Shown piece by piece: positions 1,260 through 31,784 of a stretch of 32,755 bases of DNA. The notes below the pieces were generated by a model that saw nothing but the letters and a program-made list of their open reading frames with translations, was not told the DNA's origin and ran no database searches. The stretch spans positions 1-32,755 of IMG/VR virus record IMGVR_UViG_3300042922_000563; one strand, 5' to 3'. This stretch comes from a virus. Within the stretch, counting starts at the first letter, position 1. Every line of letters begins with the position of its first letter. The position numbers and the translations under genes are program-made.

Positions 1260-1592
1260 TTAAATTCCACCTTTCAATTTTCCTAATTCATTCTCAATAT
1301 TTATTAGTTTCGTTGTTAGTTCTTCATTTTCATCCTCTAGTCTTTCAACTTCAGACTGATAAAATGCTATTTCTTTTTCATACTTGGTTTTCATGATTTC
1401 AATTTGGTGTTCTAAACGATCAACTTTCGCTTCCAATCCTTTATTCAGTTCTTCGTACTTCTGATAAAGCTGAGTTGCATTTTTGATATTCGTTTCAGCT
1501 AAGTTCGTTTTATTCGTAGTCTTAGTAGCCGCATAAGTAATTAATCCAGTTACTAACGAAGGCAATATAACTATCCACATTTGCTCTGTCAT
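1260..1592 (-). CDS. Membrane-anchored coiled-coil protein of the lysis module
   Basis: A 110-aa protein. I start it at the ATG at 1592, because AGAGGG lies just before it and overlaps the end of the upstream gene; the longer open frame has no ribosome site. Residues 5-22 (MWIVILPSLVTGLITYAA) are a single membrane segment. From about residue 40 to the end the chain is a charged heptad-rich coiled coil with many Glu/Lys. The shape suits a small helper of lysis (XhlA-like or spanin-like in topology), but no family is recognised and the role is inferred from position next to the holin. Confidence 0.75.
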   Translation of the reverse strand: MTEQMWIVILPSLVTGLITYAATKTTNKTNLAETNIKNATQLYQKYEELNKGLEAKVDRLEHQIEIMKTKYEKEIAFYQSEVERLEDENEELTTKLINIENELGKLKGGI

Positions 1593-1594
1593 AT

Positions 1595-1954
1595 CTAACC
1601 CTCTTTCAGAGCGATTCCAAACGCTAAAAGCGCCATCGCTAAAGAGAATATCCACACAGTATTTGCTGGAGGACTAATTAAGAATGAAATAGCAAAAACC
1701 ATCCATAAAAATGATAAGGTTGTCAGCGAAAATCGTTTGAGAACCTTTTTGTTCAATACCACACCAAGCAACTTCATTAGTCCGAGAATAACGAATGTTA
1801 AACTGATTAATTTCTGATCAAACATCCCATCTATCAGCCGATAAACTTTATAGCTCTGAAGAATATCTGGATACAATAGAAGTTGAACACCATAGATTAT
1901 TGAAACCAGTGATAAAATCAAACTATCCCACTTCAATACCAACACTTTCCACAT
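1595..1954 (-). CDS. Small polytopic membrane protein, unknown
   Basis: A 119-aa very hydrophobic protein with about four membrane segments (near residues 10-28, 49-67, 76-94 and 97-114) joined by short basic loops (LNKKVLKRF). AGGTGA lies 4 nt before the ATG, and the stop overlaps the ribosome site of the next gene, so the two are translationally linked. Its place between the tail genes and the holin suggests a second holin, an antiholin or a superinfection-exclusion protein. The sequence itself gives no family. Confidence 0.75.
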   Translation of the reverse strand: MWKVLVLKWDSLILSLVSIIYGVQLLLYPDILQSYKVYRLIDGMFDQKLISLTFVILGLMKLLGVVLNKKVLKRFSLTTLSFLWMVFAISFLISPPANTVWIFSLAMALLAFGIALKEG

Positions 1955-2647: not shown

Positions 2648-5600
2648 TAACTAATTCCTCCATTACTCTTTCAATTTTATTCAACCTCACCTCTAATAGA
2701 ACATTCTTTTCAACTAAGCTTTTCACAATTGGTATGAGAGTAACCCAAAGTCGATCATACTCTATTCCCTCAATCTCACCAGTTTGATATTTAGTTGAAA
2801 TAAACATTTCTAATCCTGCCCCAAGTAAATCTTCAGCAATCAATCCATAATGAGGCCTTAAGGTAATTGGATCAACATCGTTCAAGCCGCCATAAGTTAA
2901 ATCTTTAGCCGCTAATTCGATGTTTGATTTGTCAAACCAATATTTGGGCATTACTGTAAGTAATTTAAGTCCCAAATCTTCAATTTCCGGCGCTTCCGTA
3001 ATGTTTAGTTTGTATTTTGTAGCAGAAGTTGATCTGCCGAGAGTACCCGACTCAGTGATATACATATTTGAAGAAGAGCCATAAGTACGATTATAAACAG
3101 CCATAGACTGAATGGTCCTTCCTATTCCATCAAGTCCTATTCTCCAATCTGCAGATCCTGTTTTCATTGTATTGAAATTTACATTAGAAATACCAAACAC
3201 AACATCTGTAAGTCCGGGACGCTCAGCGTTGATTGAAATAGTATCATAATTTAGTGAAGCATCAATACGTCCAGTTCTTATACCTACATTCGTTGGAGCG
3301 GCTACATCAATCCCCGCATTAAAATTTACACGACTATAGAAATCAGCGGTCCCGTTAGACCTAATAATAGTTCGAGAACCTCCGCCCCAATCCCTATCAC
3401 TCATTGCGATTCCGTCAGAATTAATATCAATTCGATTCAATAATGTACCTGATGAGTTGTACTGTCGCATTTTCATATAATCATTTCCATAGAAGGTTTC
3501 AACATCATATAGATATGACCCTTTGTTATTGGAGCTAGTCACAGTATAAGCTTTTCCGGTGAAGATTAAATGTCGGTGTGACAACCGCCAATCTCCAACA
3601 AACCAACGATAATTAAAAGCACTTTCGTATTGATCACCAAAGTCATAGGTACCCATCATACCTCTGTTTTCAGTGGACATTGTAAGCCAACCAGTCACAT
3701 TAAGTGTTCCTGTATTTGTGGTAATAGCAGCTAGTGTATTAGCAACTATTTTACTTGCATCCAAATTGATTATTTTTGCACTAGATATCGTAGCATCTGC
3801 AATTTTGGCATTAGTGATCGCTGCGTCGCCAATTTTCGCATTCACAATTGCTCCGTCTGCTATTTTAGCCGTACTAACTGCTAGATTACCAATTTTGGCA
3901 TTGGTGATTGCTGCATCACCTATCTTACCTTCAGTCACGGAGAGATTTGCTATTTTACCGTTGGAAACAGCAAGATCGGCAATGTGCGCTGTTCTGATTA
4001 CAGCATTGTCAATGGTGGTAGTCCCTGTAATGCGGATTTTATTACCAGCTATCAGAATGCCTTCTGTTGAAATATTGATTTGATTGATGACATCATTCTT
4101 TTCAACCTTCAAGTTGATAGTGTCTGACAGCTGGGTGATCTGTGAAGATGTGACATTTGTGTTTGCTTCATAAACATATAACTCTCTCAGGCGTATTGCC
4201 ACACCAGCTGGAATCCAAAAAGATACCGCAGTGCCGTTTCCACTGGCTCTTGCCGTACCTGAAATCCATGTAGGAGTATTAGCTGCTGGTATGCTGAATT
4301 TAAAGTTTTCTCCTCCTGAGAACCCTACCTCTATTTCTTTATTAACAGAGGCAGTACCCACATTAGCATACATCTTAATGTTGTAAGACTTCCCTATAGC
4401 CATTCCAGCTAGTGACCAATATGCACGCCTAATGTCTGTCCCGTTATTTGTAAGAACAATTCCATTATCATCATAAACGGCAGTAACATTGGAATCTTGC
4501 ATAACGGGTTTAGGTGTCTGCTTCTTAAAGTTATAGTCAGTGAATCTGTTGGCAAGGTCTGCAATTTCTCCTTGCACTTCAGTAACTGTCTGCCTTATTC
4601 CGTCAGCAGTCTGTTCCACTTGTGTGGCTTTAATGAGTGCAGAATTAGCAGTAGTTTCAACGTTAGAAACTGTTGTCTTTAGTCCCTCTGCAGTAGTTTC
4701 AACTTGAGTTGCTTTTGCGAGAGCAGAATCAGCTGTTGTTTTCGTACTAGCTATTAACTGTGTGTGTCCGTCAACTGTTTCTGAGACCTGATTTACTTTT
4801 GTAATGGTTTCAGTATTACTAGCTAGAGAACCTCTTTCAACTCCATATTGTATGGCATTATATGGCGGCAATTCCGTTATAAAAGGTTGTGTAGCCATGT
4901 ATTCAATTGTTCCTGCGCCCGCTTTACCAAATGGTGTCATCCTGAATGCGGTATAGGTTTGAGACCACTTCATGTAATACCAAACTTCACTAAGAGACTC
5001 GCTCGTGGTTACTTCTATAGCTACCAGATCATTAGCTGTAACTAAAGAGGTATCAGATATAGAAATCTCGAACAAACTGTTTTGTCCCATAGCTGCCTGT
5101 TGCTTATGGTTCAAATATATACGACCAAGAGTAGTCTTGGAACTCCCTGCTCCTGATCCAATAAAATCAATACCAACCCGAATATCTTGATAACGAACAA
5201 TAAGTTTAGTTTTTGCGATAAGAGTCCATTTTCTTATATTTACATCTGCACTCGAAGAGGTAGCGTAGCTTTGATCAGTAATTTTTGTTGCCAAGTCCGT
5301 TTGTACACTAGATATAGTTCTAGTAAACCCATCAACAGTTGTTTCTAGTACATTTGTCTTATTCAAAGCACTTTCTGCTGTCATAGTCACAGTTGCCAAT
5401 GTTTGCTTCTGTCCATCAACTGTTACAACTAATTCATTCAATTTCTTCGTGGTTGATCCAGCCGTGCTTTCAACATCAGTCAACCTGCCGGTTAATCCAG
5501 TAACTGAGGTTTCCAGAGTTGCTGTTCTACCTTCAACAGCATTCGCCTTATTATAGGCTTCGTTAGCTTTACTACTAATAGAATTAACTGTCCCATTGAT

Positions 5601-7037
5601 CGTAGTAACATCAGAAACAAGTCCATTTACATCGATCTTTATCGCATCTGCTTTATCTTTGGCTGCTTGAGCATCTAAACCAGCTTGTGTGGCTAAGTTT
5701 GCAGCATTTTCTCCTGCTTGCTTCGCTGACTCCGCTTCTTCTTTAGCTTCTTTGGCTGCCGCTTCTGCATCTTGTACTGCTTTTTTTGCATCTTCAATTG
5801 CAGCAAGCAATTCGGGATCACCAGCTGAGGTGATTTCCATTACCCAGTCTAATACACCATCAACATTTTTATAGACCCATATCTCGGTATCTTTTCCGTT
5901 TGGCTTAAACCAAACATCGCCTTCTTTGGGATTTGGAGGTTCAGTTGAATCATAGTAGTTTGAGTTCCAATTATTCGAGCTTAGAATAGAATCAAGATAA
6001 TCAATTCGCTGATTAAGAGATCCCCGGTACTTGTAGGTTGCTTGCGAGCTTGAACTTGTTGTTGCTTTTGATTCAGCCGACATCCCGCCATTAAATGTAA
6101 TACTATAAGACAGATTGGGAACTGAATATTTCGTTCCATCATTTGCCGTAATGTAAATCCAGTCACCAGCTTCAAGTGGTGGGCACCCCCGCCATTTCAA
6201 CTCGTAAGGAAAGTAATTCAGATTTTTAACTAATTCCCATATTTGGTTCAGCAATTGTTGGGTCATAACTTTGTTTTCTAATTGAACTTGAGAGCCATTT
6301 GTTGACCCTACACGAATGACATCAGTCTCCTCTTCACCCGTTTTTACTGTTATTCCGCCAATTCGATAGCTAACCTCATTTTTTGTAAATCCTTTTAACA
6401 TATAACTTTCTGGTGTAATTTCAAAGTTTGTAGGAGCTAATCTTCGGATCTCCAACTCACCATTTCGATTAAAGCTGGCAAAACCGCCTTCGAACTGTGC
6501 GATTAACCCAATTGCTTGTCTGAATGTATATCCTTCTGGTTTGTTAATTGCAGCTGTTCCCAGAGCAGAAAATGATGATTCATTTATTTCGACCCCTGCA
6601 AGATTTGCTACCTCCAAAGCCACTTCTCTATATGGTTTCTTATAACTCAGTTTGGACTCATACGGCCCTTCCATGAAACGCATCTTATCAGTTGCTTTAA
6701 TCGTTGTAGTATTGCTGTTTCTGTTTCTCTCAAACTCATCAATAAAGAAGTGTCCAAGCTTTGTGTATTCGTAATTACCATTTACTAATACAGCAAGTTC
6801 AGGTATTACCTCTAAATCTTCTTTGACCGTTTCAATTATCGAAGGAAAAACTAGCTGAATAGAATTCATGTAAGTAGATCCTATTTGGTATGTTTCACCA
6901 GAAATACTGCCAGAATCAAAAGAGAGTGAGGTAATATCCTCACTCCCATACGTAACATTATTCATTTTGACTCGAATAGATAGCTGTCTTGAAGGGCTTA
7001 ACCAAGAAGCTATTACGTCATCTGTTGTGACTAACAA
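2640..7037 (-). CDS. Tail tip/fibre protein with C-terminal S74-type chaperone
   Basis: A 1465-aa baseplate/host-recognition protein. Residues 1 to about 340 resemble the N-terminal tail-hub part of 'phage minor structural proteins'. A short module near 362 (EPPNPKEGDVWF) is followed by an Ala/Glu/Lys coiled coil at about 405-465 and long helical repeats (TTADSALAKATQVETTA and relatives). At about 1015-1090 there are about eight decapeptide repeats of the AAITNAKIGD type, typical of fibre shafts. The last 130 residues (RSTSATKYKLN, HYGLIAEDL, YDRLWVTLIPIVKSL) match the intramolecular chaperone/auto-protease S74 pattern, with a Ser and Lys as the likely cleavage pair. The start is TTG at 7037, chosen for GGTGGGG 7 nt upstream. 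Confidence 0.88.
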   Translation of the reverse strand: MLVTTDDVIASWLSPSRQLSIRVKMNNVTYGSEDITSLSFDSGSISGETYQIGSTYMNSIQLVFPSIIETVKEDLEVIPELAVLVNGNYEYTKLGHFFIDEFERNRNSNTTTIKATDKMRFMEGPYESKLSYKKPYREVALEVANLAGVEINESSFSALGTAAINKPEGYTFRQAIGLIAQFEGGFASFNRNGELEIRRLAPTNFEITPESYMLKGFTKNEVSYRIGGITVKTGEEETDVIRVGSTNGSQVQLENKVMTQQLLNQIWELVKNLNYFPYELKWRGCPPLEAGDWIYITANDGTKYSVPNLSYSITFNGGMSAESKATTSSSSQATYKYRGSLNQRIDYLDSILSSNNWNSNYYDSTEPPNPKEGDVWFKPNGKDTEIWVYKNVDGVLDWVMEITSAGDPELLAAIEDAKKAVQDAEAAAKEAKEEAESAKQAGENAANLATQAGLDAQAAKDKADAIKIDVNGLVSDVTTINGTVNSISSKANEAYNKANAVEGRTATLETSVTGLTGRLTDVESTAGSTTKKLNELVVTVDGQKQTLATVTMTAESALNKTNVLETTVDGFTRTISSVQTDLATKITDQSYATSSSADVNIRKWTLIAKTKLIVRYQDIRVGIDFIGSGAGSSKTTLGRIYLNHKQQAAMGQNSLFEISISDTSLVTANDLVAIEVTTSESLSEVWYYMKWSQTYTAFRMTPFGKAGAGTIEYMATQPFITELPPYNAIQYGVERGSLASNTETITKVNQVSETVDGHTQLIASTKTTADSALAKATQVETTAEGLKTTVSNVETTANSALIKATQVEQTADGIRQTVTEVQGEIADLANRFTDYNFKKQTPKPVMQDSNVTAVYDDNGIVLTNNGTDIRRAYWSLAGMAIGKSYNIKMYANVGTASVNKEIEVGFSGGENFKFSIPAANTPTWISGTARASGNGTAVSFWIPAGVAIRLRELYVYEANTNVTSSQITQLSDTINLKVEKNDVINQINISTEGILIAGNKIRITGTTTIDNAVIRTAHIADLAVSNGKIANLSVTEGKIGDAAITNAKIGNLAVSTAKIADGAIVNAKIGDAAITNAKIADATISSAKIINLDASKIVANTLAAITTNTGTLNVTGWLTMSTENRGMMGTYDFGDQYESAFNYRWFVGDWRLSHRHLIFTGKAYTVTSSNNKGSYLYDVETFYGNDYMKMRQYNSSGTLLNRIDINSDGIAMSDRDWGGGSRTIIRSNGTADFYSRVNFNAGIDVAAPTNVGIRTGRIDASLNYDTISINAERPGLTDVVFGISNVNFNTMKTGSADWRIGLDGIGRTIQSMAVYNRTYGSSSNMYITESGTLGRSTSATKYKLNITEAPEIEDLGLKLLTVMPKYWFDKSNIELAAKDLTYGGLNDVDPITLRPHYGLIAEDLLGAGLEMFISTKYQTGEIEGIEYDRLWVTLIPIVKSLVEKNVLLEVRLNKIERVMEELVNG

Positions 7038-25985: not shown

Positions 25986-26648
25986 TCAACTTACAAACTT
26001 TTGATGGGAGATCTTCACTTCATCATCATTAATCATCGAGTAGGCCATCGTTGTCTCAATATTTTCATGACCGAGGAACCTAGAAACGAGTTCTATAGGC
26101 ATCCCGTGTCTTCTCGCAAGTGTTGCGGCTGTCCTTCTAAATCTGTGCGGGTGAACATTCAAAACACCTGCACGCTCCCCTAGACGCTTGACCAACTTTT
26201 GGGCTCCTGCAGTAGTCATCTCTTTCCCTCTCGTCTGTCCATAAAACAATGGACCAGTGATGTGAGGCACCTCTTTTAAATAATGATTCAATGCCAACTT
26301 TGCCTTGGCATTGAAGTATAAAGTTCTTTGCTTGTTGCCTTTTCCAATTACTTCAATCGAATCATTTTCTTGGTCATAGTCATTACAATTTAGAGAAACC
26401 AATTCAGAGACTCGACATCCGGTACTCAATAGCAGTTCGATGATGAGCGTTTCTTTTGCATTAGAAGCAGCACTTCGCAGCTTTTCAACTTCAAGCTCAC
26501 TGAATTCTTGTTTGCGCCTTTTGGGTACTTTTATCTTTTCCACCCTTGCGCCAGGATCTCGATCGATAAACTCTTCGATATAAAGCCAGTGAAAGAACCT
26601 AACGATGCAGCCACGTTCACTCCTAACCGAAACTCTTCCGAATTTCAT
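25986..26648 (-). CDS. Short tyrosine recombinase
   Basis: A 220-aa recombinase with an intact catalytic domain: R79 in STGCRVSELVSL, K103 in IGKGNKQR, H168-x-x-R171 in HPHRFRRTAAT, H194 in FLGHENIETT and Y203 as nucleophile. Only the last helix of the core-binding domain is present (IVRFFHWLYIEEFIDRDP, about 15-32), so it lacks roughly 70 residues compared with XerC/XerD. The first ATG has no ribosome site and overlaps the preceding 56-aa gene by 26 bp. It may be translated by coupling, or may be a frameshifted remnant of a longer gene. Possible roles are dimer resolution, plasmid-like maintenance or integration. Confidence 0.85.
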   Translation of the reverse strand: MKFGRVSVRSERGCIVRFFHWLYIEEFIDRDPGARVEKIKVPKRRKQEFSELEVEKLRSAASNAKETLIIELLLSTGCRVSELVSLNCNDYDQENDSIEVIGKGNKQRTLYFNAKAKLALNHYLKEVPHITGPLFYGQTRGKEMTTAGAQKLVKRLGERAGVLNVHPHRFRRTAATLARRHGMPIELVSRFLGHENIETTMAYSMINDDEVKISHQKFVS

Positions 26649-26793
26649 ATTCGTAGTCGATCAACTCTTTCAATGTATCTTTGGGATATAATTTCTTGCT
26701 CGACCGCTTTTGATGCTGCACACACAACCACTGAAACTTTTCTATGGTTGCATCATCCATTGCATATCTGGGTCTTTTTTTCTTCGTAGCCAA
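26623..26793 (-). CDS. Small putative DNA-binding regulator (56 aa)
   Basis: MATKKKRPRYAMDDATIEKF followed by a Cys-containing helix and KKLYPKDTLKELIDYEYE. The chain resembles a small ribbon-helix-helix type protein and, from memory, the replication-control proteins (PrgN type) of enterococcal plasmids; a profile search is required. The start is uncertain: TTG at 26793 lies 11 nt after AGGAGG, and a CTG 8 nt after it is also possible. The upstream operator array fits an autoregulated gene. The alternative is that it is the N-terminal part of the recombinase, split by a frameshift. Confidence 0.6.
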   Translation of the reverse strand: MATKKKRPRYAMDDATIEKFQWLCVQHQKRSSKKLYPKDTLKELIDYEYEIRKSFG

Positions 26794-26795
26794 CA

Positions 26796-26850
26796 GGTGG
26801 GACACCTCCTATTAAATGGTGGGACACCTCCTATTAAATGGTGGGACACC
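26796..26850 (-). repeat. Three palindromic operators at exact 22-bp spacing
   Basis: GGTG-TCC-CACC occurs at 26840-26850, 26818-26828 and 26796-26806, each start 22 bp (two helical turns) apart. The two units between are identical over 22 bp, with the ribosome site AGGAGG inside them. The first copy sits in the promoter spacer, the second near the transcript start, and the third beside the start codon. Confidence 0.8.
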
Positions 26851-26861
26851 TTGGGAGTTAA
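26833..26861 (-). promoter_or_regulatory. Promoter with operator in its spacer
   Basis: TTAACT (26861-26856), 17 bp and TTTAAT (26838-26833) on the minus strand. The spacer contains the GGTGTCCCACC operator. It overlaps the stop codon of the 101-aa gene. Confidence 0.55.
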
Positions 26862-27163
26862 TCCTTCCAGCGGTAAATTCGCCCTTGTTTATCTGGTTTT
26901 CCACTTTGGATTAAATTTTTAACAGTGACTTTGGACTTTTTGCATTTCTCACTCACGATTTTCTTATTTCCTGTAAAAATGACGTCCCCTTTGTACAGGA
27001 CCTCAACTAAACGTTTTTCAGGGTTTACACCTTCATAGAGATCTTCTCGGAGCTTTTTCCATTCCTTTTTGGCATCCGGGTCTTTTTCCAGATCGACTTT
27101 TTCCGCAAGGCGTACCATCCGCTGCAGTCGAATCTTTTTTTCACGACTTTTTTCTTTATCCAT
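26858..27163 (-). CDS. Small basic protein (101 aa), unknown
   Basis: A very basic, helix-rich start (MDKEKSREKKIRLQRMVRLA), then a middle strand (RLVEVLYKGDVIFTGNKKIV) and a C-terminal KKSKVTVKNLIQSGKPDKQG. The last 45 residues look like a small winged or helix-turn-helix DNA-binding module. GGGAGG lies 6 nt before the ATG, which stands right after the initiator stop codon. It probably assists replication, by position. No family is recognised. Confidence 0.75.
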   Translation of the reverse strand: MDKEKSREKKIRLQRMVRLAEKVDLEKDPDAKKEWKKLREDLYEGVNPEKRLVEVLYKGDVIFTGNKKIVSEKCKKSKVTVKNLIQSGKPDKQGRIYRWKD

Positions 27164-31040: not shown

Positions 31041-31062
31041 GCTGTTCCTCCTTTGGTATAAT
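31034..31062 (+). promoter_or_regulatory. Promoter of the plus-strand 232-aa gene
   Basis: TTTTCA (31034-31039), a 17-bp spacer and TATAAT (31057-31062). Hexamers and spacing are the same as those of the other plus-strand promoter at 25015. The -35 overlaps the start of the minus-strand 37-aa gene. Confidence 0.7.
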
Positions 31063-31085
31063 TGTTAAAAACTGGTGGTGTTAAT

Positions 31086-31784
31086 GTGGATGGATTTAAT
31101 CTCGAAACATTTAATTCTTACTTAGAAGAACGAAAGAAAATTATTGAGCCTGCCTTAGAACAAATCCGACAATTTGAAGAAGTGATTGCTCCACATGTTA
31201 AGATAATGAATGCTGCTACTGAAAATGTGAAAGTAGCAACTGAACATTACGACAAGATTCGTTCCTTAATCCCAGATGTAAAGAAATTTTATAGCGGTAT
31301 TACTACTCCCGATGAACTCAAAAATGATGGTCCGATCGAAACTCAACTTACTAGTTTAGACTCCAGATTAGTTGAGTTGAAAGAGAAACAAGATTTTACA
31401 AAAGAGGAAAAAGAAAGTTTGTTGTTAGCGTCGGAATTTATTGCCAATCAGAACATTCAAGAATCCAATGAGATTCGAAATTATCTTAATTCGATGTCCC
31501 CTACGTTGCTCAAGGACAATCAAGAAATAAGTGAAAAAAGTGAGTTGGTATCTAATAAAACTCAAGATTCCGAACACGAAGAAAAAATTATAAATCAAGA
31601 TATCGACCCTTCTTTCTTAGATGTGCTTCTAAATAAACAGACATTTTATAATGAACTTTCTGGCTTTATTTACCAAACTATTTTTGCAATGGCTTCTGGT
31701 GTAATTAATGGTGTCACCTCACCCATAACTCTTATGCTAGTTGTTTCGATTCTTTGCAAAATACTTATCAAACCAAACAAGTGA
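31086..31784 (+). CDS. C-terminally anchored coiled-coil protein (232 aa), unknown; likely cargo gene
   Basis: The start is GTG at 31086 (MDGFNLETFNSYLEERKKII), chosen because GGTGG stands 5 nt upstream and the earlier TTG is inside the -10 box. Residues 1-175 are soluble, charged and helical, with coiled-coil stretches (LEQIRQFEEVIAPHVKIMNA, LKEKQDFTKEEKESLLLASE). The last 40 residues contain two hydrophobic parts (FIYQTIFAMASGVING, SPITLMLVVSILCKILI) and a short basic end, so it should be anchored in the membrane with the bulk in the cytoplasm. It has its own promoter and terminator and lies backwards in the early operon, as lysogenic-conversion or exclusion genes do. No family is recognised. 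Confidence 0.78.
   Translation: MDGFNLETFNSYLEERKKIIEPALEQIRQFEEVIAPHVKIMNAATENVKVATEHYDKIRSLIPDVKKFYSGITTPDELKNDGPIETQLTSLDSRLVELKEKQDFTKEEKESLLLASEFIANQNIQESNEIRNYLNSMSPTLLKDNQEISEKSELVSNKTQDSEHEEKIINQDIDPSFLDVLLNKQTFYNELSGFIYQTIFAMASGVINGVTSPITLMLVVSILCKILIKPNK

Follow-up and report, generated by a model that had tools for sequence, protein, structure and literature searches.

A 56-aa protein encoded in phages and on enterococcal plasmids is accompanied, at the start of its own gene, by an array of pseudo-palindromes whose arms and spacing are conserved with the gene. The protein is probably a small RHH-like autorepressor that binds as dimers to its own tandem operators and acts by roadblock or occlusion. 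The array, its 21/22-bp spacing, its fixed place at the gene, selection on the protein, and the occurrence of one array per gene copy are established by sequence comparison; dimerization, fold, DNA binding, and repression are the parts of the autorepressor reading that we infer. The initial annotation had proposed a tiny DNA-binding-type protein repressing itself through its own operator array. That is still the best reading, and symmetric sites in helical phase at the gene, conserved with it, are what would be expected of an autorepressor.

The putative operator array in the phage genome

The window (the whole 32,755-nt stretch analyzed, from virus record IMGVR_UViG_3300042922_000563) is part of a phage genome. 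It encodes an HNH protein and a replisome organizer (PHROG 4880), whose best-covered named phage matches are enterococcal, and inspection revealed terminase-, portal-, and tape-measure-like frames. On the + strand, opposite to the surrounding early genes, lies a 240-aa frame (31062-31784) whose C-terminus is hydrophobic. The initial annotation had described three GGTGTCCCACC palindromes at exact 22-bp spacing before the 56-aa frame, with AGGAGG inside the repeat unit, and both features were confirmed (array at 26796-26850, - strand; Table 1). Read along the - strand, the order is GGAAGGATTAA CTCCCAA GGTGTCCCACC ATTTAATAGGA GGTGTCCCACC ATTTAATAGGA GGTGTCCCACC TG TTG GCT ACG AAG, with start-to-start distances of 22 and 22 bp and two identical full 22-bp units. 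The array fills the intergenic gap, since the upstream 101-aa gene ends just before it and the TTG start lies just after. Exact GGTGTCCCACC occurs in the window only as these three copies; with up to two mismatches there are 8 occurrences, compared to 2.43 expected and 7 in the most extreme shuffle.

Table 1. Features of the operator region in the window and single-copy arrays on E. hirae plasmids.
Record	Feature	Position	Strand	Remark
Window	Operator copy 1, GGTGTCCCACC, gene-distal	26840..26850	-	Homologous copy in all phage relatives
Window	Operator copy 2, GGTGTCCCACC, identical 22-bp unit	26818..26828	-	Extra tandem copy relative to two-copy relatives
Window	Operator copy 3, GGTGTCCCACC	26796..26806	-	2 bp before TTG start; begins inside Shine-Dalgarno AGGAGG
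Window	AGGAGG, Shine-Dalgarno-like, overlapping copy 3	26805..26810	-	
Window	Gene for 56-aa RHH-like protein, TTG start (26793) to TAG	26623..26793	-	Purifying selection
Window	101-aa upstream gene, function unassigned, weak PHROG 5224 match	26858..27163	-	Stop 7 bp before array
Window	Tyrosine recombinase, 220 aa, N-terminally truncated, catalytic domain kept	25986..26648	-	Outside conserved module
Window	GTGAACG, junction of 371-bp deletion relative to L004	26614..26620	-	Deletion took recombinase N-terminus
L042	Region with single operator copy	3300-3560		R7 replaced
L044	Region with single operator copy	4900-5150		Frameshift in protein
L046	Region with single operator copy	1500-1780		Altered C-terminus

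The 56-aa gene and its distribution

The substitution pattern argues that the 56-aa frame is a true gene under purifying selection (dN/dS of 0.04-0.24 in close pairs with unsaturated dS). The protein had no family match in Pfam, PHROG, or NCBIfam and no match in the phage collection, and a literature search found no paper describing the family or its array. In related phage contigs the protein is kept at an identity of 67-98% (48% in a single contig that is further away), and homologues were found in 23 of the 105 genomes of the family searched, about 14 with clear matches. On plasmids, homologues were present in 36 records, with E reaching 1 for the weakest, and in every case the host was Enterococcus (E. 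faecium, faecalis, hirae, avium, raffinosus, and gilvus). In most inspected plasmids the gene follows repA/ParA/PrgR-TraE-like genes and precedes genes for pilin, sortase, or surface proteins. The initial annotation had judged the cassette plasmid-like, a hunch borne out by the relatives found on pheromone-type enterococcal plasmids. R7 is the sole invariant residue in the wider family alignment.

Several individual records deserve mention. The E. faecalis plasmid L038, typed as non-mobilizable, has two places matching the family gene, as well as an Anti-Q RNA (Rfam RF00388, a pCF10-type pheromone control element) at 1594-1693. Two family members (L038:8001-8198 and L044:5013-5153) are annotated as addiction module toxin RelE; no support for a toxin was found in the sequence seen. 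The N-terminus of an E. termitis homologue (L050:4900-5170, and the same in L055) is readable only via a -1 shift at A AAA AAC, directly after the operator array, which may be either a frameshift site or the mark of a broken gene.

Arms and spacing of the array are conserved with the gene

Every fetched phage contig that has the family gene carries two operator copies at exactly 22 bp; only the window has three. The plasmid copies are mostly AGGGGACACC, present twice at 22 bp directly before the ATG, and exact-spacing pairs also precede homologues in further genomes. The arms GGTG/CACC are kept while the centre varies (TCC, ACG, ATG, or ACC), as in L054 (GGTG-ACG-CACC and GGTG-ATG-CACC) and L050/L055 (GATG-ACC-CACC and GATG-ACC-CATC), where the two sites are again 22 bp apart. 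Nearly every intact member has two copies of a pseudo-palindrome with the consensus RRKG-N3-CACC; weighting of 15 arrays gave (G/a)(A/G)(G/T)G-N3-CACC, with G4, C8, and A9 invariant. Spacers, central triplets, and start-codon position vary, whereas arms and spacing are constant.

The best self-match distance was 22 bp, or 21 bp in a diverged branch, in 23 of 27 sampled members (with a 29-bp tie in one), and its shuffle p was mostly <=0.01 (about 0.08 in L035 and L063). The 21-bp group consists of L039, L040, L083, and L063. Degenerate copies occur in L035 and L063, and the exceptions to the distance scan were L035, in which the second copy is degenerate, and three single-copy E. hirae plasmids. 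Single-copy arrays are limited to those plasmids (L042, L044, and L046), all of which encode a damaged protein; the correlation is small (n = 3) but suggests that site and protein depend on each other. The initial annotation had staked its proposal on the spacing not being lost in relatives that keep the gene, and 22 bp was indeed kept (21 in diverged members); its suggested array search in enterococcal plasmids and phages likewise returned pairs at 22-bp spacing with the family gene.

The second copy nearly always occupies the same place relative to the KKR coding core. In members whose start codon has shifted upstream, such as L074, L076, and L083, the array has become part of the coding sequence. 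Translation would begin within the first copy in L074, L076, and L077, which makes their arrays coding; in L039/L040 (near 5940-6190) and L083, two CCACATGTG(G) palindromes 21 bp apart lie inside the frame. These coding arrays indicate that the array is tied to the gene and not to a ribosome-binding site or promoter motif. The diverged L039/L040/L083 branch is found on conjugative E. faecalis plasmids. Each phage genome, and likewise a 4.2-Mb host genome, has a single array, and 19 of the 20 exact AGGGGACACC sites on 13 plasmids belong to arrays of the type preceding a family gene. Record W06 has two arrays by type (the first one inspected) and two gene copies. As far as sequence can tell, the putative operators act in cis at their own gene only.

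A chance repeat or a functionless simple tandem duplication is hardly credible in this setting. The window's third copy does duplicate the 22-bp unit exactly, and a 98-kb viral contig (L026:12380-12464) contains a simple 22-nt tandem array with GGTGTCCCACC that is apparently unrelated; however, arms and spacing are conserved across lineages saturated at synonymous sites, which contradicts such an origin.

Promoter and RNA-level searches

The promoter placed around the array by the initial annotation found no support. TTAACT-N17-TTTAAT is literally present, but its score of 3.9 falls below the mean best score of 5.5 obtained when the stretch is shuffled, and relatives do not keep its -10 element (TTTCAT, TAACAT). 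No sigma-A-like promoter near the array exceeded the 95th percentile of shuffled sequence in any of 21 members. Classical promoter occlusion would therefore lack its promoter, and the absence of a sigma-A-like signal above shuffles suggests that the block may act on polymerase arriving from upstream.

The same lack of a promoter would suit translational autorepression, in which the protein binds two hairpin-like mRNA repeats and covers the Shine-Dalgarno sequence. The last copy overlaps the Shine-Dalgarno sequence and abuts the start codon in most members, and the operator is limited to its own gene, as this reading would also predict. We nevertheless consider it unlikely. A spacing that stays at 21/22 bp over freely varying spacers is what helical phasing of duplex DNA would predict, and both copies lie downstream of the Shine-Dalgarno sequence in L074 and L083. 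Plasmid AGGGGACACC copies form no real hairpin, and CCACATGTGG, a perfect palindrome in one branch, has no loop. Most members had folding z-scores close to zero and one reached -2.1, with no consistent unusual folding, and an Rfam search of the window gave no match; an RNA switch was rejected on these grounds. Helix-turn spacing and the loop-less CCACATGTGG thus favour duplex DNA over RNA as the putative target, and with mostly ordinary folding energies RNA binding appears less likely.

Predicted fold of the 56-aa protein

The AlphaFold2 model (pLDDT 78.6) leaves residues 1-13 without helix and predicts helices at 14-30, 37-46, and 48-55; it is a model of the monomer, and the RHH strand forms only in a dimer. 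As far as a monomer can show, the non-helical start followed by the helices 14-30 and 37-46 is RHH-like. The putative N-terminal ribbon region is rich in lysine and arginine. A distant relative matched RHH_1 at E 0.0072, below the cut-off, another member matched RHH_5 at E 0.08, and hhalign to bona fide RHH_1 proteins gave a probability of 33%. Foldseek/VIA with the monomer model returned nothing significant, and PDB sequence searches with the protein, two profiles, and the distant relative returned nothing meaningful. An RHH type is thus weakly supported, and membership in the superfamily is likely but not established.

The recombinase is a neighbour of the gene

The frame at 25986-26648 matches Pfam PF00589 (E 4.6e-31) and retains the catalytic domain; the initial annotation as a tyrosine recombinase is therefore right as to family, with the N-terminal part missing here. 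The N-terminal core-binding domain is missing and only the tail is left, 371 bp being lost relative to L004 between two GTGAACG repeats; in L004 and others the recombinase is intact, at about 331 aa. The ATG still available falls inside the 56-aa gene and lacks a Shine-Dalgarno sequence, and the window recombinase is probably non-functional or mis-assembled. The overlap of the two frames led us to consider the 56-aa frame as a split recombinase N-terminus; this was rejected, as in relatives an intact 56-aa gene precedes a full-length recombinase.

In L004, L006-L008, and L054 the recombinase directly follows the 56-aa gene, an arrangement that could mean that the recombinase is the main target of the array, which would then serve as a switch for excision or integration. 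The wider distribution makes this highly improbable. The recombinase is truncated in the window, split in two frames in G004, and absent from G005, G006, and G008, whereas in L010-L017 it is present without the small gene or the array. No recombinase is annotated beside the family gene in the annotated plasmid neighbourhoods, and some phages have a second integrase-like match elsewhere. Gene order thus identifies the recombinase as a neighbour and not a partner of the 56-aa gene, which speaks against the co-regulation suggested initially, and no evidence was found for copy control or an excision switch.

Comparison with known systems

Arc/Mnt, CopG, and omega are small basic RHH proteins that repress their own operons, using tandem symmetric sites that share one DNA face. 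The putative 56-aa repressor resembles this type, its membership resting on weak profile similarity, and differs in its site sequence, its 22-bp spacing, and the position of the sites over the start codon. ArtA of the staphylococcal plasmid pSK41 is an RHH master repressor (PMC6540685). Like the 56-aa protein it is small (about 60 aa) with a lysine-rich N-terminus, has pseudo-palindromes near its own gene, to which ArtA binds, and belongs to a Gram-positive plasmid with transfer genes. However, ArtA has six sites in several promoters, with repeats upstream of the artA ribosome-binding site, whereas in the 56-aa family each gene copy comes with a single array, located at the start codon of that copy. 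No sequence relation between the two proteins was detectable, and homology was rejected. By analogy, the 56-aa system would work like the small plasmid and phage autorepressors (ArtA, Arc, CopG) and, given the lack of sequence relation to ArtA and the several promoters that ArtA regulates, would be an undescribed member of that kind.

On pheromone-type plasmids, prgR and prgS modulate transfer gene expression (PMC6540685). PrgN and prgR/prgS share plasmid type and neighbourhood with the family gene; PrgN and PrgR/TraE are nevertheless separate genes near it, and the distinct annotated PrgN gene on some plasmids argues against the PrgN identity considered initially. PcfF of pCF10 is likewise an enterococcal plasmid RHH protein, a relaxosome factor acting at oriT (PMC6514445). 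The 56-aa protein, with its putative fold, differs in the location of its putative sites, at the start codon of its own gene, and no relaxase was seen next to that gene in the phages.

Because RHH proteins such as PcfF bind oriT (PMC6514445), and because 22-bp repeats adjoining a replisome organizer resemble plasmid iterons, the array might be a replication, centromere, or oriT element bound by the small protein. We regard this as very unlikely, and it was rejected on position and copy number: there are just two copies, always at the small gene and never at rep genes, rep and par are kilobases away in annotated plasmids, and no relaxase or par gene was seen beside the small gene in phages.

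Proposed mechanism and implications

In the autorepressor reading, the 56-aa protein would form a small homodimer with an N-terminal ribbon and two helices. Where the protein's own gene begins, dimers would occupy RRKG-N3-CACC sites that share one face of the DNA and are separated by two helical turns. The occupied sites would block RNA polymerase by roadblock or occlusion, whether it enters the gene from upstream or initiates there. The result would be a low, self-set level of the 56-aa protein and of the downstream operon genes, consistent with the overlap of the last copy with the ribosome-binding site and start codon. We had also entertained an inverted orientation of the plasmid operators compared with those of phages; this was dropped, since both sets align in the same sense as RRKG-N3-CACC.

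A more speculative extension, to which we give an outside chance, is that the small protein and the 22-bp-phased site pair over its start codon form a portable, promoterless module, in which the bound protein would stop an already transcribing polymerase and so damp the middle of long operons, and that a resident plasmid copy could damp the operon of an incoming phage, or the reverse. Such cross-damping is conceivable because versions with the same CACC half-site occur both in phages and on pheromone-type plasmids that share hosts.

On enterococcal plasmids, a pheromone-type one among them, the family has hitherto been annotated as hypothetical protein or misnamed as RelE toxin. A protein together with its exact putative target provides a function-bearing handle on this family, and because the operator is defined to the base, both the regulation and any phage-plasmid cross-talk are directly testable. 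Enterococcal phages appear to carry the same putative regulator as enterococcal plasmids.
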